DNA of 64,000 bases from Natrarchaeobius halalkaliphilus (lineage in GTDB: Archaea > Halobacteriota > Halobacteria > Halobacteriales > Natrialbaceae): positions 248,001 to 312,000 of the forward strand of contig NZ_REFY01000004.1 of NCBI RefSeq assembly GCF_003841485.1. Reading direction: 5' to 3'. The translations under genes were made by a program, and so were the position numbers. How positions within the stretch are numbered: the stretch's first letter is position 1; every line of letters begins with the position of its first letter. Under the pieces are notes generated by a model. The model worked only from the letters and a program-made list of their open reading frames with translations, searched no databases and was not told the origin of the DNA. Of this stretch, positions 25,607 to 48,085 are shown piece after piece.

Positions 25607-26131
25607 ATGAGCACGTTAGACAGACGAGACATCGACATTCTGTTCGCGATTGCCAACAACCACACAATGAGCACGGAGACGATCCACGAGGTGACGGACA
25701 TTCCGAAATCGACGGTGCACTATCGGATTCAGAGCCTGAAAGACGGCGGCGTCATCGTAAACGACCTGTGCGAACTCGCTCGAGAGAAGATCGGCCTCGA
25801 GATCACGGTCATCTCGGAAGTGTGGGCCGAGTACGGGGAAGGATACCACGAAGAGATCGGAGAGAAACTCTCCGACATCGAAGGCGTCAATCAGGTGTAC
25901 TTCACGATGGGAGATACAGACTTCGTCGTCATCGCCCGACTCACCTCCCGGGATATGGTCGAAAAGCTCGTCGAGGATTACGAGTCGATCGAAGAGATCC
26001 GCCGAACGAGTTCGAAGTTCGCGATCACGACGATCAAAGAGACCGTCGGCGTTTCGACTCTCCGAGACTACGACGTCGAAACGGTACGAGCTGCACAGGG
26101 TCTCAGCGAAGATGGCGAGGACGGGGGTTGA
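25607..26131 (+). CDS. Lrp/AsnC-family transcriptional regulator
   Basis: A 174-residue protein. An N-terminal winged helix-turn-helix (MSTLDRRDIDILFAIANN, then KSTVHYRIQSLKDGGVI) is followed by a RAM-type ligand-binding/oligomerisation domain (VWAEYGEGYHEEIGEKLSDI, VNQVYFTMGDTDFVVIARL) that ends in TTIKETVG. It lies 172 bases upstream of the biotin carboxylase gene on the same strand and may control it and the divergently placed pxp genes, as Lrp proteins often govern neighbouring amino-acid or organic-acid pathways. The effector is unknown. Confidence 0.9.
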   Translation: MSTLDRRDIDILFAIANNHTMSTETIHEVTDIPKSTVHYRIQSLKDGGVIVNDLCELAREKIGLEITVISEVWAEYGEGYHEEIGEKLSDIEGVNQVYFTMGDTDFVVIARLTSRDMVEKLVEDYESIEEIRRTSSKFAITTIKETVGVSTLRDYDVETVRAAQGLSEDGEDGG

Positions 26132-26303: not shown

Positions 26304-27647
26304 GTGTTCGACAGGGTACTGATCGCGAACCGCGGAGAGGTTGCCGTCCGGATCGTTCACGCCTGTACGGAACTGGATATCGATGCGGTCGCGGTCTACA
26401 GCGACGCAGACGAGGAGGCCAAACACGTTAGAGTCGCTGATGAGGCGTACTACCTCGGCGGATCGCAGGCGAAAAAGAGCTACCTCAATCAGGACGCGCT
26501 CCTCGATGTCGCGCGTTTAGCCGACGTGGACGCGGTTCATCCCGGATACGGCTTCCTGGCCGAGAATCAGTCGTTTGCAGCCAACGTCGAAGAAAGCGAG
26601 TTCGCGTGGATCGGGCCACCGAGTAGCGTGATGGCGGATTTCGGTGAAAAGACGAGCGCACGGACCATCATGAAACAGGCGGATGTCCCGATCGTCCCTG
26701 GAACGACCGAGCCGATAGAGGCTCCTGGCGCAGTCGAGGCCTTTGGCGAGGAATACGGCTACCCCGTCGCGATCAAAGCCGACGGCGGCGGCGGGGGCCG
26801 AGGGCTCAAGATCGTTCACAAACCGTCCCAGACCGAATCCAAGCTCCAGGACGCGGTCCGTGAAGGAGAGGCGTACTTCGACAATCCCATGGTCTACCTC
26901 GAGCGCTTCCTCGAGAATCCCCGACACATCGAGGTCCAGGTGATCGGGGACGGTCACGGAACCGTCAGACATCTGGGCGAACGCGACTGTACCATCCAGC
27001 GCCGTCAGCAGAAGCTCGTAGAGGAGTCACCATCGCCGGTCCTCGACGAGGAGGTGCGAGACGAAATCTGTGAGGCCGCCAGGCGAGGCGTTGCCGAGGC
27101 GAGCTACGAAAACGTCGGCACCGTCGAATTTCTCTACGAAGACGGGGAGTACTATTTTCTGGAGGTCAACGCCCGCATCCAGGTCGAACACCCGATCACG
27201 GAGGTGCGCACGGGCATCGATCTCGTCAAGTGGCAGATCCGCGTCGCCGCTGGCGAGAAGCTATCGTTCAGTCAGGACGAGGTCGATCCGCGCGGTACGG
27301 CGATCGAGTTCCGGATCAACGCCGAGGACCCGGACAACGACTTCACGCCGCTTCCCGGCACCCTTTCCACGTTTCGACCTCCGACCGGAATCGGCGTCCG
27401 AGTCGAGACCGGCGTCGATCAGGGCGACTCGATCGCGCCGTTTTATGACTCGCTGTTCGCGAAGCTAATCGTCACCGGCGAGGACAGAGACGAAGCCATC
27501 GCCCGTGGCAAACGGGCGCTCGAGGGCTTCGATATCGAGGGCATCCCGACGACGATTCCCTTCCACCGTACGCTGCTCGAGGACCGCGGCTTCCTCGAGA
27601 ACGAGCACACGACGACGTACGTCGAACGGGAGCTACTGGACGAGTAG
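26304..27647 (+). CDS. accC: Biotin carboxylase subunit (AccC-like)
   Basis: A 447-residue ATP-grasp enzyme that carboxylates biotin on a carrier protein using bicarbonate and ATP. Motifs: N-terminal [25 protein letters not shown], the glycine-rich ATP loop [15 protein letters not shown] (about residues 153-167), the bicarbonate-binding region [20 protein letters not shown], and the active-site [16 protein letters not shown]. The length is that of a stand-alone biotin carboxylase, without the carrier domain. A biotin carrier gene and PxpABC homologues lie 4-7 kb away on the other strand, so the carboxyl acceptor may be 5-oxoproline or a related amide rather than acetyl-CoA. GTG start with a TATA box at leaderless distance. 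Confidence 0.94.
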
Positions 27648-27863
27648 GTTCATCCGGTGGAAGTATACCTGATCGATATGAATGTGAAACGTTTCGAATC
27701 GACGGCGTAGTCGAGGTACGCCCCGTATTCGGCACGACTCAGGTGGTATCCGCGACGAACAGCACTTTCAACGGTCAGTAACCGACTTAGAGGATGGGTG
27801 TGTCAGACCAAGCTGGTTTTACTGATAGAAAAGTACATTTCGGTCGGATGTAGCTCTGTTATT

Positions 27864-29135
27864 ATGCCAACTGATTCGTCCGACGATCAGGAGACGACGG
27901 ATTCGGGCGAGCCCGAGCCGACAGATCCGTCCGATCGGATCGTTGCTCTCGACGCTCTCCGTGGGTTTGCTCTGCTCGGGATTCTGGTGATCAACATCTG
28001 GCTATTCGGGATGCCGACTGTAGCGACGTTCAACCCGGCCCTCTACGGGGACTTTACCGGCGGGAATTACCTCGCTTGGTTCATCAGCCACGTGTTCTTC
28101 GAGCGGAAGTTCGTGACTCTGTTTACGTTCTTGTTCGGTGCCGGAATCGTCCTGTTCCTGGAATCGAAGGACAGAAAGGGCCAGTCCGGGCGGAAGTTAC
28201 ACCTTTCAAGGACGTTCTGGCTGCTTGTGATCGGCCTCGGACACGCATATTTGCTATGGTACGGCGACATCCTCGTCTTCTACGCTCTCTCCGGCTTCCT
28301 CGTCGTCTGGGTGTGGCGGTGGCGTCCACGTCGTCAGTTTATACTCGGCACCGCACTGTTCTCGATTCCGTCCATCCTCTACCTCTTGACGGGTTTGGGC
28401 TACCTCTCCTTCTCTGAGGACGGGCGGGCCGAGTTCGAAGAAGAGTTGCTCGCCGCGTTCGGCGCAGATTTCTCACCCGAAAGGGAAATCGGGATCTATC
28501 AAAGCGGCTGGCTGGATCAGATAGCTCACCGGGCCCCAGTCCTTCTCGAATATCACACACTCGGATTCGTCTTCGAGATGTTCTGGTCGGTGGGTGGAAT
28601 GATGATCATCGGAATGGCGCTCTACAAGTGGGGCATCATCTCAAATACGCGGAGCACACGCTTTTACAAACGCGTCCTCGTCGGCGTCGGTGGAGCCGGA
28701 CTTGCACTCGTCCTCGTCGGCGTGTGGCTTCGCGAGGTGTTTGCCTGGGAGACGGTCCCGGTACTCACTCTCGCGTTTCAACTCAATTACTGGGGTGCCC
28801 TGCTCCTTGCAACCAGCTATATCGCGGGGATTATGCTTCTCTGTCGGTGGATCCGCGACGGCGTGGTCGTCCACGCGTTGACCGCGGTTGGCCGGACCGC
28901 GTTTACGAATTATCTGCTTCAAACCATCATCGCGACGATGATCTTCTACGGTCACGGACTCGGGTTGTTCGGACAGTTGAGTCGCGTTGAGTTGCTGGGA
29001 GTGGTCGTGCTGATCTGGGCGATTCAAATCCCACTTTCGGTGTGGTGGCTGGAGCGGTTCCGCTTCGGACCGGTCGAATGGGTGTGGCGAACGCTTACGT
29101 ACCGTGAACGTCAGCCGATGCGGCTCGAAAAGTAA
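27864..29135 (+). CDS. DUF418-family polytopic membrane protein
   Basis: A 423-residue protein with an acidic N-terminal tail (about 30 residues) and about 10 transmembrane helices. The family signature RIVALDALRGFALLGILVIN and the later ERKFVTLFTFLFGAGIVLF place it with the DUF418/YeiB acyltransferase-like membrane proteins. The C-terminal DUF418 region includes WIRDGVVVHALTAVGRTAFTNYLLQ and ends in an arm with PVEWVWRTLTYRERQPM. The ATG at 27864 is preferred because the conserved part follows it; the frame extends upstream to 27798. It sits between accC and pxpA without an obvious link to them. Confidence 0.9.
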   Translation: MPTDSSDDQETTDSGEPEPTDPSDRIVALDALRGFALLGILVINIWLFGMPTVATFNPALYGDFTGGNYLAWFISHVFFERKFVTLFTFLFGAGIVLFLESKDRKGQSGRKLHLSRTFWLLVIGLGHAYLLWYGDILVFYALSGFLVVWVWRWRPRRQFILGTALFSIPSILYLLTGLGYLSFSEDGRAEFEEELLAAFGADFSPEREIGIYQSGWLDQIAHRAPVLLEYHTLGFVFEMFWSVGGMMIIGMALYKWGIISNTRSTRFYKRVLVGVGGAGLALVLVGVWLREVFAWETVPVLTLAFQLNYWGALLLATSYIAGIMLLCRWIRDGVVVHALTAVGRTAFTNYLLQTIIATMIFYGHGLGLFGQLSRVELLGVVVLIWAIQIPLSVWWLERFRFGPVEWVWRTLTYRERQPMRLEK

Positions 29136-29313
29136 TCGGACGGAGCTACCGGGTGAGAGTTACTGGACCATGGGGAGCAGCTCGTGGTCACGTCTCGGAG
29201 ATCTGTTCCGCCCTCCGATTCACCCGCTCGAGGTACAAGGTGGCTGTTTCTCCGGTTTGTGTGTTGTCAACCGATCCTCAAGTAATACGGGCGTAGCGGT
29301 CCAACCGAAGTGT

Positions 29314-30282
29314 ATGATGCGAACAGTTCGGGCGGTGATACCGTCCGTTACGGCCCTTGTATGGAACGAAGCGCAGGGTCGAGTGCGAGCACCGTGGCGG
29401 ATTCTTGCGCCGCTACTGCCGATGTTCGGTGTTGGCATCGTCGTGAGCACGCTTCTGTTCGGCCGAGTGTCTGTCCCGGTGCTCATCACGGCGACGCAAA
29501 TGACGTTGGCGATCGCTATGGTTACTGCGGTTGCAGTGACGACTCGGTATCTCGACCGAGGACGGACCGTTTGGCAGTACGGGTTACGGGCTGACAGACG
29601 CTGGGCACATGATCTGCTTGCCGGGTTCGGCCTCGCAGCCGGTGCAGTGGCGATTCCGTACCTGATCGGGGTTGCGATCGGATGGTACGAGATCTCGACG
29701 ACGTTCGCTGCCGGTCACGTGAGCTTCTGGATGGGACTGTTGTTGGTCGTCATCGCGTACCTAGGGACGGGCGTTTGGGAGGAGGTGTTCTTCCGGGCGG
29801 TGTTCATGGTGAATGCTGCGGAGGGACTTCGCCGGTGGCTGTCCCCGAAACATACGCTCGTCGTTGTGCTTGCCGTACAAACTGTAATTTTCGGTGTTAT
29901 TCATCTCGAACACTGGTCGGTGCAGGCTCCGCATCCGGCGTTCGTCGTGACGTGGATCCTCGCTGGACTCGTGTATGGTGTGTTGTACCTGCTGAGTAAT
30001 GACCTCGCGCTGCCGATCGCGGCCCATGCAGGTGGGAATGCCGCGGGGGCAAGCCTGATTTCTGCGACCGATCCTGCAGATAGTGGATGGGGTGTACTCG
30101 TCCTCGTCGAGCCGACCAGCGAGGCGATCCTACTCGGACACGGCGGCGTGATGATGTTCAGTGCGAACGTGCTCGTGCTGTCGTTTGGAATTGGATGGTT
30201 GCGGTACACCCGGAAAGGGCCGCTTGAATTATGGGACCATCCAGCGTTCTTCGTGACCGAGCAGATCGGCGAGTCGGAGTAA
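29314..30282 (+). CDS. CPBP-family intramembrane metalloprotease
   Basis: A 322-residue integral membrane protein of the CPBP/Rce1-type (Abi) family. The conserved motifs are EEVFFRAVF (Glu-Glu and Arg, about residues 166-174), the histidine in IFGVIHLEHW (about residues 206-209), and PIAAHAGGNAAG, where the second conserved His/Asn pair lies. These residues bind the metal in glutamate-type intramembrane proteases that process prenylated proteins or bacteriocin-type peptides. About 8 hydrophobic segments are seen. Two ATGs at 29314 and 29317 are both possible starts. Codon use is less GC-extreme than in the housekeeping genes. Confidence 0.88.
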   Translation: MMRTVRAVIPSVTALVWNEAQGRVRAPWRILAPLLPMFGVGIVVSTLLFGRVSVPVLITATQMTLAIAMVTAVAVTTRYLDRGRTVWQYGLRADRRWAHDLLAGFGLAAGAVAIPYLIGVAIGWYEISTTFAAGHVSFWMGLLLVVIAYLGTGVWEEVFFRAVFMVNAAEGLRRWLSPKHTLVVVLAVQTVIFGVIHLEHWSVQAPHPAFVVTWILAGLVYGVLYLLSNDLALPIAAHAGGNAAGASLISATDPADSGWGVLVLVEPTSEAILLGHGGVMMFSANVLVLSFGIGWLRYTRKGPLELWDHPAFFVTEQIGESE

Positions 30283-30567
30283 CGAGTCTGGTCGTTGAAC
30301 GGGTCGTACAAAGAGTGTGTCTGATCGTCCAGTTTGGGTGACTGATCTGAATCAGCCTGTGCGAACTGCACGCATCATTCGGTGCAGTCCTGTGATCAGA
30401 GCCAACGGAAGCCAGATGTCTCGACGATACATTCGTTACCTGTACTTACCGCCAGGTCAGTAGTCCACTAAAGGAGGAAAATCGGACAAGGAGCGTACAC
30501 TACAGATGCAAATGGAGCAGTGAATCACCAGAAAATCTTATTAATAGCATACTATTTGGTATATATA

Positions 30568-30813
30568 ATGTCTGAATCTGAAACTGAGAAATCGATACTA
30601 AAGTGGTTTGTTCTCCCAGCCACACTTACGTTTTTTCTCGTCAATCTCTTCCAAATTAGCCCGATTCTTTCGGTTTGGACTACATCGGTAATCGGTGGAG
30701 GAAACATCCTTTGGGTTATACTTATTCCCACGTATTCTCTGCTATTAGCGGTTCTCGTAGGGTTTTGTGGTCTTCATTTCCCCCCTCCGGACCAGTGCGA
30801 ACGGCCAGTCTAA
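30568..30813 (+). CDS. Small two-helix membrane protein, unknown function
   Basis: An 81-residue protein: a charged N-terminus (MSESETEKSILKW) and two hydrophobic helices (about residues 15-36 and 43-69), with a short polar C-terminus. The codons are rich in A and T compared with the rest of the window, and the upstream 30530-30567 is very AT-rich with several TATA-like stretches, both suggesting acquired DNA. ATG 30568 is chosen because it opens the charged cytoplasmic start; a GTG at 30520 would add 16 residues. I do not recognise a family. Confidence 0.5.
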   Translation: MSESETEKSILKWFVLPATLTFFLVNLFQISPILSVWTTSVIGGGNILWVILIPTYSLLLAVLVGFCGLHFPPPDQCERPV

Positions 30814-30891
30814 TTTTGGGAGAGATGAATTCAAAAAAACGATACATAGAATCCCAATAGTGTATGCCCACTGACCGAGATCTTCCTCGAG

Positions 30892-31659
30892 TCAGTCCGC
30901 GACGAGTTCCGGCAGGCCGACGAGTTCGATGTCGTGGTCGTCGATCCGTTCGTGGATCGCCTCGAGGAGTTCGACGGCGTTGGGATTGTCGCCGTGGATG
31001 CAGATGCTGTCGGCGGGAACTGAGATTTCCTCGCCGTTTGCGGCCTCGACGACGCCGTCGGTGGCGATGGAGACGAACCGGTCGGCGACGAGATCGGGAT
31101 CGCGATCGGACAGCTCCTGTTCGACGATGAGCGACCGGTCGGCCCGGTAGTCGAGATCGACGTAGCCCTCGAAGACGGCTCGCAGGCCGTCGACTTGCTG
31201 GGCGACCTCGTGAATATTCATATCGGTCGCGAGGTAGATGAGATCCTCGTCGACCTCGAGCATGCCCTCCATGACGGCTCGAGCGTGCTCGGCGCTGTCG
31301 GACAGCATCGAGTACATCGCACCGTGGGGTTTGACGTGCTGGACGGAGGTCCCGTGGCGGCGGGCGAACGCCGCGAGTGCGCCGAGCTGATAAACGACGT
31401 AGTCGCGGACCTCCGCTGGGCTGGCGTCCATCGTCCGTCGACCGAATCCCACCTTGTCGGGAAGGCCGGGGTGAACGCCGATACCGACGCCGTGGTCGGC
31501 GGCAAGCTCGACGGTTTCGCGCATGACGTGGGGATCACCGGCGTGATAGCCCCCGGCGATGTTCGCGGACGTCACGTAGGGCATGACGTCGGCGTCGTTC
31601 CCCATCGTCCAGTTGCCGAAGCTCTCGCCCATGTCACAGTTGATATCGATTCCAGTCAT
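30892..31659 (-). CDS. pxpA: 5-oxoprolinase subunit A (LamB/YcsF family)
   Basis: A 255-residue protein of the PxpA family; with PxpB and PxpC it forms the ATP-dependent enzyme that opens 5-oxoproline to glutamate in prokaryotes. The signature IDINCDMGESFGNW is at residues 4-17, followed by SANIAGGYHAGDPHVM, GVHPGLPDKVGFGRR and VKPHGAMYSML, all typical. The C-terminus carries SICIHGDNPNAVELL. ATG 31659 starts the conserved part. It is the last of four minus-strand genes (PxpB, PxpC, carrier protein, PxpA) with spacers of 88 and 154 bases, so a second promoter before it is possible. Confidence 0.95.
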   Translation of the reverse strand: MTGIDINCDMGESFGNWTMGNDADVMPYVTSANIAGGYHAGDPHVMRETVELAADHGVGIGVHPGLPDKVGFGRRTMDASPAEVRDYVVYQLGALAAFARRHGTSVQHVKPHGAMYSMLSDSAEHARAVMEGMLEVDEDLIYLATDMNIHEVAQQVDGLRAVFEGYVDLDYRADRSLIVEQELSDRDPDLVADRFVSIATDGVVEAANGEEISVPADSICIHGDNPNAVELLEAIHERIDDHDIELVGLPELVAD

Positions 31660-31813
31660 GGATGTACGTCCACCACAAGTTCGCATATAGCTTGGGTGAC
31701 CCCGCTCGCCGCGCGTCAGTGGACGTCTGTACTCGTTCTCGAGACGCGTCTCGAGACGACGGAAAACTATTCGGTTTCGCCACCGGTGAGGGTCGGTTCG
31801 CTGCCGGGAAAGG

Positions 31814-32062
31814 CTACGCCGCGTCGATCTCGACGAGTGGCTGATCGGCCTCGATTTCGGCTTCGTCTCCGACGAGGAACTCGCTGACGGTTCCCGCCCG
31901 ATCGGTTTCGATCTCGTGGAAGTTCTTCATCACTTCGACGAGACCGATCGTCTCGCCAGCGTCGACGCTGTCACCCGGTTCGACGAACGGTGCTTCTTCG
32001 GGATCGGGACGTCGGTAGAAGACGCCCGGCATCGGTGAGTTGATCGTGATGGTCTCGGACAT
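31814..32062 (-). CDS. accB: Biotin carboxyl carrier protein (AccB-like)
   Basis: An 82-residue stand-alone biotinyl domain. The biotinylated lysine is in LVEVMKNFHEIE (Lys about 46), and the flanking strands ITINSPMPGVFYRR and AEIEADQPLVEIDA close the barbell fold. It has no N-terminal Pro/Ala linker, so it is a minimal carrier. It probably shuttles carboxy-biotin from the AccC homologue at 26.3 kb to a transferase. Its position between pxpC and pxpA suggests that the transferase is PxpBC-like rather than an acetyl-CoA carboxylase. Confidence 0.92.
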   Translation of the reverse strand: MSETITINSPMPGVFYRRPDPEEAPFVEPGDSVDAGETIGLVEVMKNFHEIETDRAGTVSEFLVGDEAEIEADQPLVEIDAA

Positions 32063-32150
32063 GGTCGGTCGTATTATATTGGACCTCGTTCGATTTGTAG
32101 TTTCTCTCCTGATTCACATCCTGACTTGGGCAGAATCACTCGGATCACGG

Positions 32151-33122
32151 TCATCCGTCGATCACGGATCGGATCTCCTTGAGTCGCTCGCTCCGTCGCG
32201 TTCGCGCGTCGATCGCCTCCTCGACGTCGACGGACTCGAACGAAACCGTCTTGTGCGTCTGTCGCTGGGCGAGCAGTCCGCGGTCGGCACTGATGACCGT
32301 GCCGACGGTGGCGTAACCGCCGCCAGTGACCGCATCCTGCATGAGAACGATCGGCTGCTGGGGAACCTGGATCGAACCGATCGGATAGCCCAGGTCGACG
32401 ACGTTCGACGGATCCGTGCCCGCCCCGAACGGCTGCTCGCGCTCTTCGAACTCGAGGTCCGGTCCCTCGAGGCGGTAGCCGACGCGGTCGGCTTCGGCGG
32501 AGACCGTCCACTCCGCGTCACAGAGCGTCGCTCTCGCCTCGTCGGTGAGACGGTAGCTGGTCAATCCGACGACGATCCGGACGGCGTTTTCGTCGGCGTA
32601 CTCGGGGATGTACTCGTCGGGAAGTCGCGTGCCGACCAGGTCGACGCTCCCGTTCGGCGGCTCACCGACCGAAAGTTCGTCGCCCGCCTCGAGCCCGCGG
32701 CCCTCGTGACCGCCGATCCCGACGAGCGTGTACGTCGACCTGCTCCCCATCACCTCGGGGACGTCGATGCCGCCCGCGACGGCGAGGTACGCGCGAGCGC
32801 CGTCGGTCGCGAACTGGACGGAGAGCTCGTCGCCGGCCTCGACGGCCACGGTTTCCCAGCTTCCGATCGGATCACCGTTCAGTTCGGGTGACATGTCGGC
32901 ACCGGTGATCGCGATAACGGCGTCGTCGTCGAACGTGGCCGTAATCCCCTGGTAGGTCATCTCGATGGTCGCGGCGTCGGCGTCGTTGCCGACGAGGTAG
33001 TTAGCAACCGTGTGTGCGTACTCGTCCATCGCACCCGACGGAGGCATGCCGATATGATAGTGTCCGGTTCGGCCGAGATCCTGAACCGTACTCGAGATGC
33101 CTCCCTCGTGGACGTCGATCAT
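32151..33122 (-). CDS. pxpC: 5-oxoprolinase subunit C / KipA-like (biotin-dependent carboxyltransferase family)
   Basis: A 323-residue protein of the KipA/PxpC family, homologous to the C-terminal half of the urea carboxylase transferase and allophanate-hydrolase-like subunits. Typical features: VHEGGISSTVQDLGRTGHYH at the N-terminus, GMPPSGAMDEYA, and MTYQGITATFDDDAVIAITGA with later SDRTDRRAS. Its start overlaps the PxpB stop by 4 bp, so the two are translationally coupled and likely form a heterodimer. The carrier protein follows after 88 bases. Confidence 0.93.
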   Translation of the reverse strand: MIDVHEGGISSTVQDLGRTGHYHIGMPPSGAMDEYAHTVANYLVGNDADAATIEMTYQGITATFDDDAVIAITGADMSPELNGDPIGSWETVAVEAGDELSVQFATDGARAYLAVAGGIDVPEVMGSRSTYTLVGIGGHEGRGLEAGDELSVGEPPNGSVDLVGTRLPDEYIPEYADENAVRIVVGLTSYRLTDEARATLCDAEWTVSAEADRVGYRLEGPDLEFEEREQPFGAGTDPSNVVDLGYPIGSIQVPQQPIVLMQDAVTGGGYATVGTVISADRGLLAQRQTHKTVSFESVDVEEAIDARTRRSERLKEIRSVIDG

Positions 33123-34021
33123 TCGATCACCGCCGTGAGGTCGTCGGTGTACTCGTGTGGCGACTCGAAGAACTCGTCGGGCGAGAAGCTCACTCGCTGG
33201 TAGGTGTACTCGTACTCGCCGGCCTCGACCGACTCGCGGATTTCGTCGTACGTGTCGCGGTCGATTCGCCTGTAGTTCAGGATGTCGCCCGGATTGGGAA
33301 ACACCATCGAATCACGGAAATCCGGCAGGATCTGGTCGACGTCCAGTACTTCGATCGGCGTCCGACCGTATAGCTGGTAGCCGCCCGCTCCCTGAACCGG
33401 GTAGATGACCGAGAACGCACCGCCGAAGCCGACCGCGCGACTCGGCGTGTCGGTTCGGGGTTCGACGTACTTCGGCACCTCGAGTTGTTCGCTCCGTGGC
33501 ACCATCTGGAAACACCAGGGGAGGCCGGGGACGAACCCGACCATCGTCACCATGTGTGGCGCGCCGACGAACGCGTCGAGAAACGCCTCGACGGAATCGT
33601 AGCCGTTGATCTGCGCCGAGTACTCGAGATCCGTCGCATCGGCGTCCTGATGGCGGTCACGAAACTCCATGAGCGTCTCGTGGGTCCATGGATCCTGAAA
33701 GAGGACGGGGACGTCGATCAGTCGCGTATCCCACTCGTACTCCGTCAGGTCGAGGTCGGATTCGATCTCCCGGAGCTGTGCGATCAGGTCGTCCGGGTGG
33801 ATCACCTCGGGATCGATCCGGAGCATGTACGAGGCGTTGGCCGGACAGTTCTCGATGACGCCGTCGATCTCCCGTTCGGCCACCTGCTGGGTGATCGCCA
33901 TCGCCTTGACGTTAGCAGTGAAGCTCATCGCTTCCGCGAGTTCGACGAATACGTGATCGTCAGCGCCGTATTCGTATCGAGGCTCGGGAAGATCGTCTGG
34001 AGTGATCCGTTCGTTCGCCAT
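33119..34021 (-). CDS. pxpB: 5-oxoprolinase subunit B / KipI-like
   Basis: A 300-residue protein of the KipI/PxpB (allophanate hydrolase subunit 1) family. Characteristic segments are FVGAPHMVTMVGFVPGLPWC (about residues 153-172), YVEPRTDTPSRAVGFGG, YPVQGAGGYQLYGRTP and a C-terminal FPNPGDILNYRRID. Bacterial PxpB is usually about 220 residues; this one has roughly 80 more, split between the N-terminus and an acidic C-terminal tail, as in other haloarchaeal homologues I recall. An AT-rich box near 34049-34062 lies about 34 bases before the ATG. It is the first gene of the pxpB-pxpC-accB-pxpA run. Confidence 0.93.
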   Translation of the reverse strand: MANERITPDDLPEPRYEYGADDHVFVELAEAMSFTANVKAMAITQQVAEREIDGVIENCPANASYMLRIDPEVIHPDDLIAQLREIESDLDLTEYEWDTRLIDVPVLFQDPWTHETLMEFRDRHQDADATDLEYSAQINGYDSVEAFLDAFVGAPHMVTMVGFVPGLPWCFQMVPRSEQLEVPKYVEPRTDTPSRAVGFGGAFSVIYPVQGAGGYQLYGRTPIEVLDVDQILPDFRDSMVFPNPGDILNYRRIDRDTYDEIRESVEAGEYEYTYQRVSFSPDEFFESPHEYTDDLTAVIE

Positions 34022-34120: not shown

Positions 34121-36136
34121 CTACGTCCGTCGCGCGAGCAACGTTGCGACGAGCGCACTGAGCGCAACGAGCGCCGCTGCGAGGCCGAAGCCGGGGATAC
34201 CGTCGTCTCCCGAGAGATCGACGTCGAGGAAGTCAGCCGCGCGTTCGGTGTCCATCTCAGCGAACTCGCGGTCGCCTTCACCGGGTTCGTACACCTCGGT
34301 GTCGTCGTCGACGAGACCCAGTTCCGCGAGCGTGGATTCCGACAGCTCGTCGTCGGTCTCGAGGTCTTCGATGTAGACGTAGGTGACGACGTCGCCGTCC
34401 TCGTCCTCGCCGGCGATCTGCGTCACGGCGACGTTGTCTCCGAGGATGCCGTCTTCGATCAGCGACTCCGTGTTCTCGAACTTCGCACCGGCTTCGAGTT
34501 CGACCGTCTCGCTGTCGAAGTCGACGTCGACTTTCGCGATCTCGAGTTCGGAGTCCTCGAGAGTCGAGGCGAAACTACCCAGTTCGTCGGATTCGTCCTG
34601 TATCACCGTCGTCATGGACGTCAGCACTTCTTCTGCGAGGTCGTCCATCCCGATCTCGACGGTGCCGTCGACGTACACCTCTTCGCCCTCCGTGTAGGCG
34701 GTGAACTCGAAGACGACCTCTTCGTCGGCGGCATCGATGCCGCGGTCTGCGAGTTCGTCCGTGTACGCGTCGTAGTTCTCGGTGTCTCCCGTCGCCTGGG
34801 CCTCGAGTTCGATCTGGTTGTCGTCGGTGAACTCGGCGGTTGCGTCCCACTCGAACGTCGTTCGGAGGTCAGCCGCCTGCTGGGCCTCGAACATGTCGTC
34901 GAACTCCTCGAACTCGTCTTCGAACAGGTCCTCGTCGTCCATCGAGGCCTCACCGAGCTCACCGATCGCCTCGATAGCTGCCGCGTACTCGTTGATCTGG
35001 ACGTTCCAGGTCGCCTCGAACTCCTCGTCGCTCGAGATCATCTCGAACTCGACGGTCTCGATCTCGAGTTCGGTCACCTGGGCCGCGATGCGCTCTGCAT
35101 CGTCCACGGAGAGATCAGTCTGTGGATCGTCGACGAGCTCCTCGGTGAGTGCGTCCTGGAGACCCTCTTCGATTCCCTCGTAGGTGACCGTGTAATCGAG
35201 TTCCTTCCAGTAGGTGTTCTCGTCGTGCTCGTCGAAGTCGTGGTGGTCGATCTCGACCGTCACCTCACCGCCGAGTTCCTCCGCCATCTCGGCGTACTGC
35301 TCTTCGAGGGTCGCTTTCGCCTTCGCTTCGGTTTCCCACTCCTCGACCGGGTCGGAAAACATCGAATCGAACTCGGTTTGGCGTTCGCTGACGGCGATTT
35401 CGTAGCCGTCTGCGGTCTCGGACAGTTCGAACGAGAACGTTTCATCGGGCGAGTCGCCCATCGCTGACGTTCCCAGGTCGACGTGGACGTCACCGCTCGT
35501 CCGGAAGGTGTCCGCGGCGACCTCGACGTCGCCCGACGTACTGGCGGATTCGAACAGACTCTGTTGTTGGGTCTGGGCTCCGGCAGTCGACAGCTGCTGA
35601 GTGTCCGCGTCGTCCGAATCGCCGCTAAAGAGCGCGTAGATGTCGGCGTCGAACTCGCTCGTCTCTTCGGTCTGTTCGCCGGAGATCTCGACGTCGAGTT
35701 CGTCGAGTTCGGGCGGTTGCTCCATCGTCAAGTGACCATCGGCGGAGAAGAGATCCTCCTCGAGAGACGCGCTCATCTCCCCTTCGATGTCCTCGTCGCC
35801 GTCGTTCTCGCCGGCGATGAGGACGTGTGCGAGTCCCTCGCTGACGTCGGCACCGAGTTGGAACTCGTCGATGTCGTCGTCGCCGTCGTCGGTGTAGACG
35901 AGGACGCCGCTGCCGTCGTCCTCGACGTACAGTTCGTCCGCGCTCCCGAGCGTGTCTCCGGCGTCGTCGAAATCGCCAACGGCGTCGACGTCGTACTCGG
36001 GTTGATCCGGTTCGGCCGCCGATACACCGTGCATTCCACCCATCGCAACCATCGACAGTCCCACGATCACCGCGAGCGTGACTGCGATCGATGGCCTACC
36101 ACGGACCGATGGAATCGATATCCTATTGGAGGGCAT
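34121..36136 (-). CDS. Secreted PGF-CTERM surface protein, very acidic
   Basis: A 671-residue exported protein. The N-terminus is a signal peptide (IAVTLAVIVGLSMVAMGGMH, cleavage near AEPDQ). The long ectodomain is rich in Asp and Glu, with alternating beta-like and helical stretches and no known enzymatic motif. The C-terminus is a PGF-CTERM anchor: DGIPGFGLAAALVALSALVA followed by ARRT, the site processed by archaeosortase A and lipid-modified. It is probably part of the cell envelope. A strong TATA box (36161-36170) lies 30 bases before the ATG at 36136. Its exact role is unknown. Confidence 0.88.
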   Translation of the reverse strand: MPSNRISIPSVRGRPSIAVTLAVIVGLSMVAMGGMHGVSAAEPDQPEYDVDAVGDFDDAGDTLGSADELYVEDDGSGVLVYTDDGDDDIDEFQLGADVSEGLAHVLIAGENDGDEDIEGEMSASLEEDLFSADGHLTMEQPPELDELDVEISGEQTEETSEFDADIYALFSGDSDDADTQQLSTAGAQTQQQSLFESASTSGDVEVAADTFRTSGDVHVDLGTSAMGDSPDETFSFELSETADGYEIAVSERQTEFDSMFSDPVEEWETEAKAKATLEEQYAEMAEELGGEVTVEIDHHDFDEHDENTYWKELDYTVTYEGIEEGLQDALTEELVDDPQTDLSVDDAERIAAQVTELEIETVEFEMISSDEEFEATWNVQINEYAAAIEAIGELGEASMDDEDLFEDEFEEFDDMFEAQQAADLRTTFEWDATAEFTDDNQIELEAQATGDTENYDAYTDELADRGIDAADEEVVFEFTAYTEGEEVYVDGTVEIGMDDLAEEVLTSMTTVIQDESDELGSFASTLEDSELEIAKVDVDFDSETVELEAGAKFENTESLIEDGILGDNVAVTQIAGEDEDGDVVTYVYIEDLETDDELSESTLAELGLVDDDTEVYEPGEGDREFAEMDTERAADFLDVDLSGDDGIPGFGLAAALVALSALVATLLARRT

Positions 36137-36523: not shown

Positions 36524-37135
36524 ATGAGATTCGATGGCACGTTCGAGCTCGGGGACGTATCGACGGAGGCAGTCTGGCTCGTGCTGTCGGACCCGGTGAT
36601 GATCGAGCAGGCGCTGCCCGGCTGTGAGTTTCTGCTCGAGGTCGACGACGACGCGAACTTCGACGAGCTTCGGGAACGGGCCGAGGCGACCGAGGAAAAG
36701 CCGCCGACGCTGCCGGAGGCGACACCCGAAGCGGTCGGTGAACGGGCCTTCGAGGAAGGCGAGACGTACGCCGCGTTGATGGAGCTGGGCGTCGGGGGCG
36801 TCAAGCCGAGTTTCGAGACGACCGTGACGATCGCAGAGCGAGAGTTCCCGCGGATGGCGACGACCGGCAACGGCTCCGCCGCGAACAGTTCGTTCGAGAT
36901 GTCCGCCTGGATGGAACTCGAGGAGATAGACGACGGCGTCGCCGTCGAGTGGGAAGCCGAAGCCGACGTGTTCGGGAAGATCGCCCAGCTTGGCGGCCGG
37001 GTGATAAACCCCGTCGCGAACCGCATCGTCAACCAGTTCTTCGAGGACGTCGCCTCCCGACTGGACGAGGTCGAAGAGCCCGACGACGAGACCGAACGAA
37101 CCCGGCTCAGAGACCGGATTCAGGACGCGCTATGA
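36524..37135 (+). CDS. coxG: CoxG/SRPBCC-domain protein
   Basis: A 203-residue protein of the CoxG (carbon monoxide dehydrogenase subunit G, START-like) family. The fold starts MRFDGTFELGDVSTEAVWLVLSDP and contains the characteristic MIEQALPGCEFL. After an acidic insert of about 40 residues it continues with strands SSFEMSAWMELEEIDDGVAVEWEAEADVFG and a C-terminal helix NRIVNQFFEDVASRL. CoxG recruits the dehydrogenase to the membrane in bacteria. It opens the four-gene cox operon and its stop overlaps a tiny coupling frame that leads into coxS. Confidence 0.9.
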   Translation: MRFDGTFELGDVSTEAVWLVLSDPVMIEQALPGCEFLLEVDDDANFDELRERAEATEEKPPTLPEATPEAVGERAFEEGETYAALMELGVGGVKPSFETTVTIAEREFPRMATTGNGSAANSSFEMSAWMELEEIDDGVAVEWEAEADVFGKIAQLGGRVINPVANRIVNQFFEDVASRLDEVEEPDDETERTRLRDRIQDAL

Positions 37136-37215
37136 GTGACGGTCAGGCGGTTGCGAGCGACGTACCCGCGCTCAGCGGAGACCGATCAGTAACCAGCGGA
37201 GACCGATCAGTATGA
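37132..37215 (+). CDS. 27-codon coupling peptide between coxG and coxS
   Basis: The ATG overlaps the coxG stop (ATGA) and the frame ends in a TGA that overlaps the coxS ATG, so ribosomes finishing coxG could read straight into coxS. The peptide is [20 protein letters not shown] plus TSGDRSV. A 21-bp tandem duplication (37173-37212) makes up the end, and each copy contains a GCGGAGA stretch that may act as a ribosome-binding site. It is probably a coupling device rather than a functional peptide; it could also simply be a spacer. Confidence 0.35.
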
Positions 37216-37706
37216 CGATCACGACACACGAAATTACGCTCACGGTTAACGGAACGAAACGAGAACTGAGCGTCGAGCCGCGCACGCTGTTGATACACGC
37301 CCTCCGGGACCACCTGGGATATACGGGTCCGAAAGTCGGCTGTGAGAGTAGCCTCTGTGGGGCCTGTACGGTCCACGTCGACGGGAAGGCGGTCAAGTCC
37401 TGTACGCTGTTGGCCGTTCAGGCCGACGGTGCAGACGTGACCACCGTCGAGGGCCTCGGCGCGGCGGACGAACTCCACCCGCTCCAGGCGGCCTTTCAGG
37501 ACGAACACGGGCTCCAGTGTGGCTACTGTACGCCCGGCGTGTTGCTGAGCGCGCTGGCGCTACTCGAGAGCGAACCCGACCCCTCGCGGACGGAGATCAG
37601 GGCGGCGCTCGAGGGGAACCTCTGTCGCTGTACCGGCTATCAGAACATCGTCGACGCGGTCGAAACCGCCGCCGACAGAATGCCCGCGGCCGAGGGGGAC
37701 GACTGA
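37212..37706 (+). CDS. coxS: CO-dehydrogenase-like small subunit, 2Fe-2S protein
   Basis: A 164-residue protein of the xanthine-oxidase-family small subunit. The plant-type 2Fe-2S cluster is bound by [15 protein letters not shown] and the later Cys in VKSC. The second, helical-domain cluster is bound by QCGYCTPG and [13 protein letters not shown]. It passes electrons from the molybdenum centre of CoxL to FAD of CoxM. The coxL ATG follows the stop after one base. The ATG at 37212 lies inside the duplicated coupling sequence. Confidence 0.95.
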
Positions 37707-37707
37707 G

Positions 37708-40077
37708 ATGGCATCCGAATCTGACGCGGACGAGCGGGTCTTCGGCTCGTCGGTCGAACGACGCGAGGACGTCGGTCTGCTGACCGGCGAGGCGACGTTC
37801 ACTGACGACGAACTCCAGGACGCCGCCCACGTCGCGATCCTGCGCAGCCAGTACGCCCACGCGACGATCGAGGGAGTCGAGACGAGCGCGGCCGAGGAGC
37901 GCGACGGCGTCCTCGCGGTCTACACCGGCCGGGACGTCGAGGACAGCGGGATTCCGAACGATATTCCGACGGCGTGGATGCTGCCCGGTCTGGTCACTCC
38001 GCAGTACCGTATCATGGCGACCGACAGGGTCCGTCACACTGGCGACGCCCTCGCCGCGGTCGTCGCCGAGGACCGGTATACGGCCTACGACGCTCTCGAG
38101 GAGATCGACGTGAGCTACGACCGTCTCGAGGCGGTCACGAGACCCGACGAGGCGGTCGACGCCGACGTGACGGTCCACGAAGAAGCCCCGGACAACGTCG
38201 CCTTCGACTTCGAACTCGGTGACGCGGACGCCGTCGACGACGCCTTCGAGGCGGCCGACCACGTCACGAGCGTCGACCTCGAGCAACCTCGCATCATCCC
38301 GAACGCCGTCGAACCGCGCGCCGCGGCCGCCGCCTACGACACCTCGAGCGACGACCTGACGATCTGGATGACGTCGCAGAATCCGCACCTCCACCGGGTG
38401 TTGCTATCGACGGCGACGCTCGGCCACCCCGAGCACAAACTCCGGATCGTCGCCCCCGAGGTCGGCGGCGGGTTCGGGAGCAAGATCTACCACTACCCCG
38501 ACGAGGCGATCACGGCGTGGTGTGCGAAGCAACTCGGCGGCGCGGTCGAATGGCAGGCGACTCGAACGGAGGGGTACGTCACCGACTGCCACGGTCGCGA
38601 TCACGTCACCGAGGCCGAACTCGCGCTCGATTCCGACGGAACCATCCGCGGGTTGCGCGTCGAAACGCACGCGGGCCTCGGCGCGCACCTCTCGCAGTTC
38701 GCCACGGCGACGCCGTCGTACCTCTACGCGACCATCCTCTCGAGCGAGTACGCCATCCCGGCAATCCACTGTCGCGTGATCGGTGCGTTCACGAACACGA
38801 CGCCGGTCGACGCCTATCGTGGCGCAGGCCGGGCCGAGGGAATTTACGTCACCGAGCGGATCGTCGACGTCGCGGCGAGAGAACTCGACCTCGATCCGGT
38901 CGACGTCCGTCGAACGAACCTGATCCCGCCCGAGGAGTTCCCCTACGAGACCGCGGTTGCCCTCGTCTACGACAGCGGCGAGTACGAGGAGGCGATGGAC
39001 CGCGCTCTCGAGTTGATCGACTACGAGGACGTCCGCGAGCGACAGGCGAAACTCCGCGAGGAGGGACGGTATCTCGGCGTCGGCGTTGCCAATTTCGTCG
39101 AGTCGGCGGGACTGTCGCCGTCGAAAGCCGCCGGCGAACTCGGCGCGACGGCCGGCGGCTGGGAGGCCGGCGTCGTCCGGTTTCATCCGTCGGGAACGGT
39201 CTCGGTCGCCTGTGGAACGGCCGATCAGGGCCAGGGTCACCGCACGACGCTCGCACAGGTCGCCGCCGCCGAACTCGGCGTTCCGGTCGAGGACGTCGAA
39301 GTCGTCGAAGGCGACACCGACGAAGTCCCACAGGGAATGGGGACCTACGGCAGCCGAAGCGCCCCCGTCGGCGGCGGTGCCGTCGCCCAGAGCGGACGCA
39401 AAGTCGTCGAGAAGGGCCGCTCGATCGCCGCCCACAAACTCGAGGCCAGCGAGGAGGATGTCGAGTTCGACGACGGAACGTTCCACGTCGCGGGCGCGCC
39501 GGATCGCTCGATTTCGATCCAGGAGCTCGCCTACGCGGCTTACCTGGGCCACGACATCCCCGACGAGATGGAGCCCGGGCTCGAGGCGACGTCGTACTAC
39601 GATCCGGAGAACTTCACCTTCCCGTTCGGGACCCACGCCGCTGTCGTCGAGGTGGATCCGGACACCGGCGAGGTCGAGTTCCACCGCTACGTCGCGGTCG
39701 ACGATTGTGGCGAGCAGATCAATCCGATGATCGTCGAGGGACAGGTCCACGGCGGGATCGCACAGGGTATCGGCGCGGCGCTCTTCGAGGCCGCGAACTA
39801 CGACGACAACGGAACGCTCGTCTCCGGGTCGATGAACGAGTACGCGCTTCCGCGAGCCGAGCGCCTGCCGGAGTACGAGACGGACAGCACCGTCACGCCG
39901 AGTCCCCACAACCCCATCGGCGTCAAAGGCGTCGGGGAGTCCGCGACGATCGGCGCGACGCCGGCCGTCGTCAACGCCGTCGTCGACGCCCTCGAGCCGT
40001 TCGGCGTCGACCACCTCGACATGCCGCTGACGAACGAGACGGTCTGGGCGGCCATCGATTCCGGAGGTGAGCCCTGA
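37708..40077 (+). CDS. coxL: CO-dehydrogenase-like molybdenum large subunit (form II)
   Basis: A 789-residue molybdenum hydroxylase. Cofactor-binding motifs include EVGGGFGSKIYHYPDE, QGQGH, GTYGSRSAPVGGGA and CGEQINPMIVEGQVHGGIAQ; the catalytic Glu is in GVGESATIG near the end. The active-site loop reads PVDAYRGAGRAEG. True CO dehydrogenases of form I carry AYxCSFR with an active-site Cys, while form II proteins carry AYRGAGR. This is therefore form II, and CO may not be its real substrate; another aldehyde, purine or aromatic substrate is possible. One base overlaps with coxM. Confidence 0.93.
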   Translation: MASESDADERVFGSSVERREDVGLLTGEATFTDDELQDAAHVAILRSQYAHATIEGVETSAAEERDGVLAVYTGRDVEDSGIPNDIPTAWMLPGLVTPQYRIMATDRVRHTGDALAAVVAEDRYTAYDALEEIDVSYDRLEAVTRPDEAVDADVTVHEEAPDNVAFDFELGDADAVDDAFEAADHVTSVDLEQPRIIPNAVEPRAAAAAYDTSSDDLTIWMTSQNPHLHRVLLSTATLGHPEHKLRIVAPEVGGGFGSKIYHYPDEAITAWCAKQLGGAVEWQATRTEGYVTDCHGRDHVTEAELALDSDGTIRGLRVETHAGLGAHLSQFATATPSYLYATILSSEYAIPAIHCRVIGAFTNTTPVDAYRGAGRAEGIYVTERIVDVAARELDLDPVDVRRTNLIPPEEFPYETAVALVYDSGEYEEAMDRALELIDYEDVRERQAKLREEGRYLGVGVANFVESAGLSPSKAAGELGATAGGWEAGVVRFHPSGTVSVACGTADQGQGHRTTLAQVAAAELGVPVEDVEVVEGDTDEVPQGMGTYGSRSAPVGGGAVAQSGRKVVEKGRSIAAHKLEASEEDVEFDDGTFHVAGAPDRSISIQELAYAAYLGHDIPDEMEPGLEATSYYDPENFTFPFGTHAAVVEVDPDTGEVEFHRYVAVDDCGEQINPMIVEGQVHGGIAQGIGAALFEAANYDDNGTLVSGSMNEYALPRAERLPEYETDSTVTPSPHNPIGVKGVGESATIGATPAVVNAVVDALEPFGVDHLDMPLTNETVWAAIDSGGEP

Positions 40078-40976
40078 TGTACCCCGCGCCGTTCGAGTAC
40101 GTGAGCGTCGAAAGTACGGCGGAAGCGGTCGACTCCCTCTCGGAGTACGGCGATCGGGAGGTGACGCTGCTCGCCGGCGGCCACAGCCTGCTGCCGACGA
40201 TGAAATCCGGTCTTTCGACCCCGGAAGTGATCGTCGACCTGGCCAGCGTCGAATCGTTGTACGGAATCGATCACGACGACGGCGTTACGCGCATCAACGC
40301 GATGACCGAGTACGCGGCGATCGAACGAGACGAGACGCTGTGGAACGAGAACCCGGTCGTTCCGGAGGCCGCCGCCGAGATCGCGGACGTCCAGGTGCGA
40401 AACATGGGTACCATCGGTGGGAACATCGCCCACTCCGATCCGGCGGCCGATCTCCCCGCCGCGGTACTCGCCGCAGACGCCACGATCCACGCGCTCGGAC
40501 CCGACGGCCGGCGGGAGATTCCAGCCGCCAACTTCTTCGAGGCGATGTTCACGACCGCGCTCGCGGACGGCGAACTCCTCACCGCGATCGACGTCCCCCA
40601 CCTCGGGGAGAACGACGCCGCTGCGTACGTAAAGAAAGCCAGCGCCTCGTCGGGCTACGCGCTCGTCGGCGTCGCAGCGGTCCTCGAGACCGACGGCGAG
40701 GAGATCACTGATGCGCGCGTCGCCGCCAACGGCGCGTTCGATCACGCGATGGCCCTCGAACCGGTCGAAACGGAACTCGTCGGCGGCTCCCTGGACGACG
40801 ACGGGGTAGCCGAACGAGCCGCCGCGTTCGTCACCGACGACGTCGAATCGTACGTTCTCATGGACGACGAACAGGCCTCGGGCGAGTTCCGAGAACACCT
40901 CCTCGAGGTCTATACGGAACGCGCACTCGAGACGACGATCGCTCGCGTCGATGGCGGCTCGTCCGCGAACGAGTAA
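40077..40976 (+). CDS. coxM: CO-dehydrogenase-like FAD subunit
   Basis: A 299-residue FAD-binding subunit of the xanthine-oxidase family. Its FAD-binding motifs are LLAGGHSLLPTMKSGL (about residues 33-48) and VRNMGTIGGNIAHSDPAADL (about 105-124), followed by the CO_deh_flav_C-type C-terminal domain. It accepts electrons from CoxS and passes them to a quinone or other acceptor. Its ATG overlaps the coxL stop by one base (TGATG), so the subunits are made together. The gene order coxG-S-L-M differs from the common bacterial coxM-S-L order. Confidence 0.94.
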   Translation: MYPAPFEYVSVESTAEAVDSLSEYGDREVTLLAGGHSLLPTMKSGLSTPEVIVDLASVESLYGIDHDDGVTRINAMTEYAAIERDETLWNENPVVPEAAAEIADVQVRNMGTIGGNIAHSDPAADLPAAVLAADATIHALGPDGRREIPAANFFEAMFTTALADGELLTAIDVPHLGENDAAAYVKKASASSGYALVGVAAVLETDGEEITDARVAANGAFDHAMALEPVETELVGGSLDDDGVAERAAAFVTDDVESYVLMDDEQASGEFREHLLEVYTERALETTIARVDGGSSANE

Positions 40977-46150: not shown

Positions 46151-48085
46151 ATGGACCGCAAAGAGTTTCGCGACCTCGCTGATCCGGCGGAGGCACACGA
46201 GACCATCGCGTCGCTATCGCTCGAGGCCGGGATCGATCGCGTCTCGCTCGAGGACGCTCGCGGGCGAGTGCTCGTCTCGCGTCTCGACGCCGAACTCGAC
46301 GTTCCCGGCTTCGACCGGGCTTCACTCGACGGCTACGCGCTTCGAGCGCGGGACACGTTCGGGGCCGACGAAGCCGATCCCGCCCGACTCTCCGTCGCCG
46401 GAACCGTCCACGCCGGACAGGAGCCGGACGTCTCGCTCGGGGAGGGACAGGCCGCAGAGATCTCGACGGGTGCGGTGATGCCCGACGGCGCCGACGCGAT
46501 GGTGCCGATCGAGCGCATCGACGCTGCGAACGGAGCGGCGGGCGACGCCGCGCCGGGAACGATTCTGGTTCGAACGAGCGTCGCGCCCGGTGACAACGTC
46601 ATGTTCGCGGGCGCTGACGTCGCCGCCGGCGAGCGCGCACTCGGTCCCGGCGCGCGGATCACGCCCCGCGATATCGGTCTGCTTTCGGCGCTCGGAATCG
46701 ACGAAATTCCGGTCCGGGGTCGGCCGCGAGTCGGTATCGTCTCGACAGGCGACGAGCTCGTCCGACCGGGCGAGGACGTCGACAGCGCCCGCGGGGAGAT
46801 CTACGACGTCAACAGCTACACGATCGCGGCTGGCGTCGAGGACGCGGGCGGCGAGGCGGCACTCTACCCGCACGCCGGTGACGACCGCGAGGAGATGGAA
46901 CGCGTTCTCCGGACGGCCGCGGACGAGTGCGATCTTGTCCTCTCGTCCGGCTCGACCAGCGCGAGCGCGGTCGACGTGATCTACCGCGTGATCGAGGACG
47001 GGGGCGAGCTACTACTCCACGGCGTGAGCGTCAAACCCGGAAAACCCATGCTCGTCGGACGGCTCTCGGAATCGGCGTACGTCGGTCTCCCCGGCTACCC
47101 CGTCTCGGCCATGATGGTCTTTCGGAGCTTCGTCGCCCCGGCGATCCGCTCCGCCGCCGGATTGCCAGAGCCCGCGGCGGCCAGGGTCACCGGCCGGATG
47201 GCGCGCGAGGAACGCTACGGAGAGGGGCGACTTCGACTCATGCCGGTCGGACTTATTCAGAGTGGATCCGATTCAGCGACCTCGAGCGACGATCAGCCGG
47301 AGGGTGACACGCTCGTCTATCCCGTAGACAAGGGAAGCGGCGCGACGACGAGCCTCGCACAGGCCGACGGCGTCGTCGAAGTCGATCCGGAAACCGACTA
47401 CCTCGAGGCGGGCGAATCCGTCACGGTACAGCTGTTCTCGCCGGACGTGCACCCGCCGGCGCTACTCGGCGTCGGCGAGGACGATCCGACCATGAACCGG
47501 CTGCTCGATCGCCTCGAGAACGCGCGGTATCTCTCGGTCGGTTCGCGGCCCGCGCTTCGACGACTCCGCGACGGCGTGCCCGACGTGGCGGTCATCGCCG
47601 GGCCGATCGAACGGGCGATCGACGCCGCGGAACTCGGCGGCTGGGGCCGGGAGTGGGGGCTGATCGTCAAACCGGGAAACCCGGACGAGATCGAGGGACT
47701 GTCCGACCTGATCGAACGCGATATCCGTTTCGTCAACCGGACCAACGACTCGGGCACCCGCACGAGTCTGGATCGCCTGCTGGCGGAGCGGTCGCACGAC
47801 GAGGGGGTTGCGCGCAACGATCTCGAGGACGCGATCGACGGATACGGCGTCGGGCTCCGAGCCCACGAAAGTCCCGCCCGAACGGTCATCGCCAGCGACG
47901 CCGACGCCGGACTGGGGCTCGCAGAAACGGCCGACCGGCTCGACCTCGCGTTCGTTCCGCTTGGAACACACCGGGTGCGACTCCTCGCGAACCCGGATCG
48001 TCTCGAAAAGCCCGAGATGCGCGAACTCGAGGAGATGCTCGCCGCCGAAGCGTTCCCCCCTGGGACGGAATTTCAACGAGAGTGA
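46151..48085 (+). CDS. moeA: MoeA with C-terminal PBP-like domain
   Basis: A 644-residue fusion. Residues 1-400 are MoeA, which inserts molybdate into adenylylated molybdopterin: VPGFDRASLDGYALRARDT, GAVMPDGADAMVPIER, GARITPRDIGLLSALG, VGIVSTGDELVRPG, the motif SGSTSASAVDVIY, and GVSVKPGKPMLVG with GLPGYPVSAM. Residues about 435-640 are a periplasmic-binding-protein-like domain (PBP_like) often attached to archaeal MoeA, including VNRTNDSGTRTSLDRLL. It may bind molybdate or another oxyanion. It serves the Mo enzymes here, such as CoxL. It is followed after 54 bases by a Bat-type regulator. Confidence 0.94.
   Translation: MDRKEFRDLADPAEAHETIASLSLEAGIDRVSLEDARGRVLVSRLDAELDVPGFDRASLDGYALRARDTFGADEADPARLSVAGTVHAGQEPDVSLGEGQAAEISTGAVMPDGADAMVPIERIDAANGAAGDAAPGTILVRTSVAPGDNVMFAGADVAAGERALGPGARITPRDIGLLSALGIDEIPVRGRPRVGIVSTGDELVRPGEDVDSARGEIYDVNSYTIAAGVEDAGGEAALYPHAGDDREEMERVLRTAADECDLVLSSGSTSASAVDVIYRVIEDGGELLLHGVSVKPGKPMLVGRLSESAYVGLPGYPVSAMMVFRSFVAPAIRSAAGLPEPAAARVTGRMAREERYGEGRLRLMPVGLIQSGSDSATSSDDQPEGDTLVYPVDKGSGATTSLAQADGVVEVDPETDYLEAGESVTVQLFSPDVHPPALLGVGEDDPTMNRLLDRLENARYLSVGSRPALRRLRDGVPDVAVIAGPIERAIDAAELGGWGREWGLIVKPGNPDEIEGLSDLIERDIRFVNRTNDSGTRTSLDRLLAERSHDEGVARNDLEDAIDGYGVGLRAHESPARTVIASDADAGLGLAETADRLDLAFVPLGTHRVRLLANPDRLEKPEMRELEEMLAAEAFPPGTEFQRE

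Follow-up and report, generated by a model that had tools for sequence, protein, structure and literature searches.

The closest described systems are urea carboxylase and urea amidolyase (K. lactis, PDB 5i8i and 3va7), which have a biotin carboxylase (BC), a biotin carrier, a carboxyltransferase (CT) homologous to that of the present locus and an amide hydrolase acting next; in the K. lactis urea amidolyase, Lys1605 is described as probably acting as the general base in carboxyl transfer (PMC5770610). The PxpABC 5-oxoprolinase of E. coli, B. subtilis and C. glutamicum shares with the locus PxpA and a CT_C_D/CT_A_B pair, but ordinary PxpB is short, has Arg at the position of the general base and usually has no AccBC nearby. 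Operons alike in gene content (pxpB, pxpC, accB, accC and pxpA) occur in S. aureus and L. plantarum, though the latter belongs to the short Arg type and its carrier has the motif AMKM. In PDB entry 9yx5, the long-chain acyl-CoA carboxylase of M. smegmatis, a PxpB/PxpC-type pair (MSMEG_0435-0436) is bound to the complex with AccA3, its biotin carboxylase-carrier subunit, which shows that binding of such a pair to a complex with a subunit of this kind is possible; that pair, however, is of the short Arg type, and no PxpA was found among the sequences of the entry. ATP-driven lactam opening is known from caprolactamase CapAB and HyuAB-type lactamases, which belong to an unrelated protein family and do not use biotin, and the mechanisms considered for this reaction include a carboxylated intermediate (PMC8453981). 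A biotin-dependent lactamase was not found in literature searches confined to open-licence papers, which is weak evidence of novelty.

The window, i.e. the whole 64,000-nucleotide stretch analysed, belongs to a haloarchaeal genome of 3.5 Mb in 12 contigs. Its open reading frames were assigned domains using Pfam and NCBIfam profiles, which agreed with the sequence-only reading on the identity, coordinates and strands of AccC, AccB, PxpC, PxpB and PxpA and on an Lrp regulator beside accC. The features are as follows.

25607..26131, plus strand: Lrp/AsnC-type regulator (AsnC_trans_reg, HTH), probable regulator of the cluster
26304..27647, plus strand: AccC, stand-alone biotin carboxylase (Biotin_carb_N, CPSase_L_D2, Biotin_carb_C)
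27798-29135: DUF418 protein, between accC and pxpA
29104-30282: CPBP/Rce1 protein, between accC and pxpA
30892..31686, minus strand: PxpA-like hydrolase (LamB/YcsF; PF03746, E 3e-88; NF003814 above cut-off), proposed ring-opening subunit
31814..32062, minus strand: AccB, minimal biotin carrier of 82 aa with the motif EVMKN (PF00364, Biotin_lipoyl; NF005457, 109.6 bits against a cut-off of 87)
32151..33122, minus strand: PxpC-like carboxyltransferase half (CT_A_B) of the long type (PF02626, E 1e-89)
33119..34021, minus strand: PxpB-like carboxyltransferase half (CT_C_D) of the long type, with Lys184 (PF02682)
36524..37135, plus strand: CoxG-like protein (PF06240)
37212..37706, plus strand: CoxS-like 2Fe-2S subunit (Fer2_2, Fer2)
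37708..40077, plus strand: CoxL-like molybdenum subunit (MoCoBD_1, MoCoBD_2) with an AYRGAGR motif in place of the form I motif of CO dehydrogenase
40077..40976, plus strand: CoxM-like FAD subunit (FAD_binding_5, CO_deh_flav_C)

A 97-aa open reading frame is the third gene between accC and pxpA. AccC matches solved biotin carboxylases over its full length, and its [10 protein letters not shown] motif is preserved. The 671-aa open reading frame between pxpB and the cox genes (34121-36136) ends in a hydrophobic C-terminal tail and matched no Pfam family.

Neither carboxyltransferase half reached the curated model of its name. PxpB scored 68.4 bits on the PxpB equivalog TIGR00370 (cut-off 145.55) and PxpC 218.6 bits on the PxpC equivalog NF045499 (cut-off 500), and both scored higher on the urea carboxylase model, PxpC with 231.8 bits. 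The equivalog for a single urea carboxylase of ~1200 aa (TIGR02712) does not describe them either, the genes being separate and the scores far below its cut-off of 1303.85. In phylogenetic trees the long type and urea carboxylase were recovered as one clade, with support values of 100/98 for PxpC and 100/100 for PxpB, and in both the long type formed its own clade, sister to urea carboxylase; the trees are midpoint-rooted only, and it is the split that is supported, not its direction. The position aligned with K1605 of the K. lactis enzyme is Lys in 115/115 long PxpB proteins and in both urea carboxylases, and Arg in 42/42 short PxpB proteins; in the PxpB of the window it is Lys184. The alignment also disclosed insertions in long PxpB and PxpC that are common to urea carboxylase and missing from the short type. 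A structure model of the window PxpB (pLDDT 93.5) had urea amidolyase/urea carboxylase (5i8i, 3va7; TM ~0.78) as its best PDB matches, compared with TM ~0.55 for E. coli YbgJ and the mycobacterial pair. Judged from these sequence and fold comparisons, the PxpB/PxpC pair is of the urea-carboxylase type and not of the short 5-oxoprolinase type. It departs from urea carboxylase and urea amidolyase in that the subunits are separate, the hydrolase is PxpA instead of allophanate hydrolase, and the carrier motif is VMK[N/T/S] instead of AMKM. The single Lys/Arg position offers a simple sorting criterion for PxpB-type proteins. The idea that Lys marks every link to biotin was dropped, as short Arg-type PxpB adjoins AccBC in three of the fetched loci (L031, L033 and L117). 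Three actinomycete loci (L081, L086 and L093) carry, beside the main cluster, a second Lys-type PxpB/PxpC pair that groups with urea carboxylase and not with the type found in the window.

The PxpC family (PF02626) was found in 20/194 haloarchaeal genomes, spanning several families and 13 genera, and the AccB family (NF005457, at the curated cut-off) occurred in exactly these genomes and in no others (p ~1e-27 with genomes treated as independent, the true value being larger through relatedness). This agreement lies far beyond chance and bears out the idea that accC, accB and pxpABC occur together in other haloarchaea. PxpA was present in 19 of the 20 genomes and in four other haloarchaea. In the fetched haloarchaeal loci the acc and pxp genes stay near each other while their order and strand are shuffled, and a similar Lrp/AsnC-type gene lies near accC in many of them; some loci end before the whole cluster, and the partner-gene counts are lower bounds. 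Two genomes are exceptions in that one gene, accB in the first and pxpA in the second, is located elsewhere on the same contig. All five genes form one same-strand run in 18 loci. One of the 20 genomes (G122, L028) has a broken pxpC next to an accB that still scores above the family cut-off, apparently a decaying copy of the system.

Scanning of bacterial and archaeal species with the long-PxpB alignment gave 219 relatives, and 80 loci were kept, from haloarchaea, Rubrobacteraceae, other actinomycetes and Bacilli. Long PxpB is adjoined by AccB, AccC and PxpC in almost all of these, and mostly by PxpA too. The same gene set was found in Rubrobacter, actinomycetes, Bacilli, Rhizobium and Acidiphilium, with the order pxpA-accB-accC-pxpB-pxpC on plasmids of Rhizobium leguminosarum and Acidiphilium. 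AccB was near the long type in 86/91 loci, compared with 0/35 short-type loci sampled from genomes, which were drawn mainly from Bacillota; haloarchaeal and bacterial loci alike are related by descent, and p-values overstate their independence. On the Acidiphilium conjugative plasmid (L030) the run continues into bioB, so that the system travels on a mobile element along with a gene of biotin synthesis. Two Bacilli genomes (G199 and G194; L127, L129 and L130) contain extra long-type PxpBC pairs that lack their own AccBC, which is encoded elsewhere in the genome, and one biotin carrier may serve more than one carboxyltransferase there. An aminotransferase link in Bacilli (5/15 long-type against 4/33 short-type loci, p 0.11) was not significant and is a lead only.

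Taken together, it seems likely that the five genes constitute one biotin-dependent system, comprising a split urea-carboxylase-like carboxylase and a PxpA-type hydrolase, with a lactam other than 5-oxoproline as the most likely substrate. By analogy with urea amidolyase, AccC would use ATP and bicarbonate to carboxylate biotin carried on AccB. PxpB and PxpC are predicted to associate as the carboxyltransferase, which would move the carboxyl group from AccB-biotin to an amide nitrogen; the general base is probably Lys184 of PxpB. PxpA would then hydrolyse the amide bond activated in this way, and the N-carboxy product would subsequently lose CO2. The substrate, presumably of the lactam class, would often be made by a neighbouring molybdenum hydroxylase.

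The genes for this hydroxylase, coxG-coxS-coxL-coxM (36524-40976), are part of the same association and were absent from the sequence-only reading. A CoxSLM-type molybdenum hydroxylase lies near 25/91 long-type loci and 0/35 short-type loci. In 12 other loci, from archaea and bacteria, it shares a gene run with pxp/acc genes, as in Natrinema gelatinilyticum (pxpB-pxpC-accB-coxG-coxS-coxL-coxM-pxpA) and Janibacter (coxS-coxL-coxM-pxpA-pxpB-pxpC-accB-accC). With about seven such molybdenum proteins in the genome of the window, a chance neighbour within 15 kb is expected in ~3% of cases. Molybdenum hydroxylases can convert imines and N-heterocycles to lactams, and for this reason a lactam substrate fits; against the preferred explanation, only about one in four long-type loci has the hydroxylase nearby. 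A MoeA-like protein, recognised by sequence only, is encoded close to the hydroxylase genes (46151-48085) and would supply the cofactor.

The same carboxylation chemistry could instead act on 5-oxoproline, in haloarchaea without ordinary PxpABC. This is rather unlikely, although the window encodes a clear PxpA homologue, the catalytic-core residues are kept in PxpA of the long-type loci, neither a second PxpC-type gene in the genome of the window nor a second PxpBC in haloarchaea was found, and a single S. aureus operon combines pxpBC, accBC and pxpA (PMC11315280). Arg189, which at least 95% of the ordinary PxpA proteins have, is absent from all PxpA of the long-type loci, that of the window included, and this residue may be one that reads the substrate. 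The system is missing from 174/194 haloarchaea, and the genome of the window also has a gene for a HyuB-type ATP-dependent hydrolase. Moreover, all six of the bacterial genomes with the long type that were compared (6/6) also contain an ordinary short PxpB, which argues for a different job of the long-type protein. The lactam opened is probably not 5-oxoproline, or not 5-oxoproline alone, and the earlier suggestion that the true substrate may be different is strengthened both by the urea-carboxylase type of PxpBC and by this retention of ordinary PxpB.

PxpA was also found on its own: in three haloarchaeal genomes (G017, G072 and G172; L165, L166 and L168) it is encoded without PxpBC or AccB, and adjoins an amidase in two of them and coxS-coxL-coxM in the third. 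Since four haloarchaea have PxpA without PxpBC or AccB, the protein may also have a biotin-free role in which it works alone.

Action on urea itself, as a split urea carboxylase with PxpA in place of allophanate hydrolase, is highly improbable. BC, carrier and CT are all present, with the general base and the shared insertions of urea carboxylase, and urea amidolyase is the best structural match; yet the long type forms its own clade beside urea carboxylase, and PxpA belongs to the LamB/YcsF proteins and not to the amidase-signature enzymes. The C-terminal domain of allophanate hydrolase (AH_C) was not found in the genome of the window, and urea transport genes were not recognised among the most frequent neighbours of the loci, both of which count against urea.

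That AccC and AccB are surplus acetyl/propionyl-CoA carboxylase subunits, with an ordinary ATP-dependent 5-oxoprolinase merely nearby, accords with current annotation, with the NCBIfam names and with the counting of accBC among fatty acid synthesis genes in S. aureus (PMC11315280), but is strongly disfavoured and was rejected, given the exact co-occurrence of AccB and PxpC over 194 genomes, the grouping of PxpB and PxpC with urea carboxylase, and a fused BC-BCCP that already serves the acyl-CoA carboxyltransferase. The PF01039 carboxyltransferase genes of the genome are on other contigs, and one adjoins a 615-aa gene for this fused BC-BCCP; having its own fused subunit, the acyl-CoA carboxyltransferase does not need AccC and AccB, and it is the fused protein, not these two, that was found to pair with it. 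The genome also encodes a biotin ligase family protein, and biotin genes occur near the cluster elsewhere (BioY in Rubrobacter, bioB in Acidiphilium). Nearly all long-type AccB proteins have VMK[N/T/S] in place of MKM, the MK of the window AccB being followed by Asn; this departure from the usual motif weighs against the preferred explanation, in which AccB is presumed to be biotinylated, as do the three loci with short Arg-type PxpBC beside AccBC, where biotin use may not depend on Lys. On the genomic evidence, the biotin dependence of the AccC-AccB-PxpBC system is nevertheless well supported, and the proposal of the sequence-only reading that the carboxylation step uses biotin is upheld by the co-occurrence and by the separate BC-BCCP of the propionyl/acetyl-CoA carboxyltransferase.

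For the split lactam carboxylase favoured here, a wider pathway in haloarchaea and bacteria can be put forward tentatively, with rather less confidence than the enzyme itself: a molybdenum hydroxylase would make a lactam from a cyclic imine or N-heterocycle, the split biotin enzyme would carboxylate the lactam nitrogen, and the PxpA-type hydrolase would open the ring; at some of the loci, breakdown of the amino acid so formed may then fall to a class III aminotransferase and an aldehyde dehydrogenase. The structure 9yx5 makes it worth asking whether ordinary PxpABC, too, uses a biotin carboxylase in trans. Enzymes able to open stable lactams under mild conditions have practical uses for polyamide monomers. 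If the proposed function is correct, biotin-dependent carboxylation would reach beyond urea to cyclic amides, as biotin-dependent lactam opening. A recurrent, mislabelled system that databases now spread over the labels 'fatty acid synthesis', '5-oxoprolinase' and 'allophanate hydrolase' could then be recognised as one enzyme.
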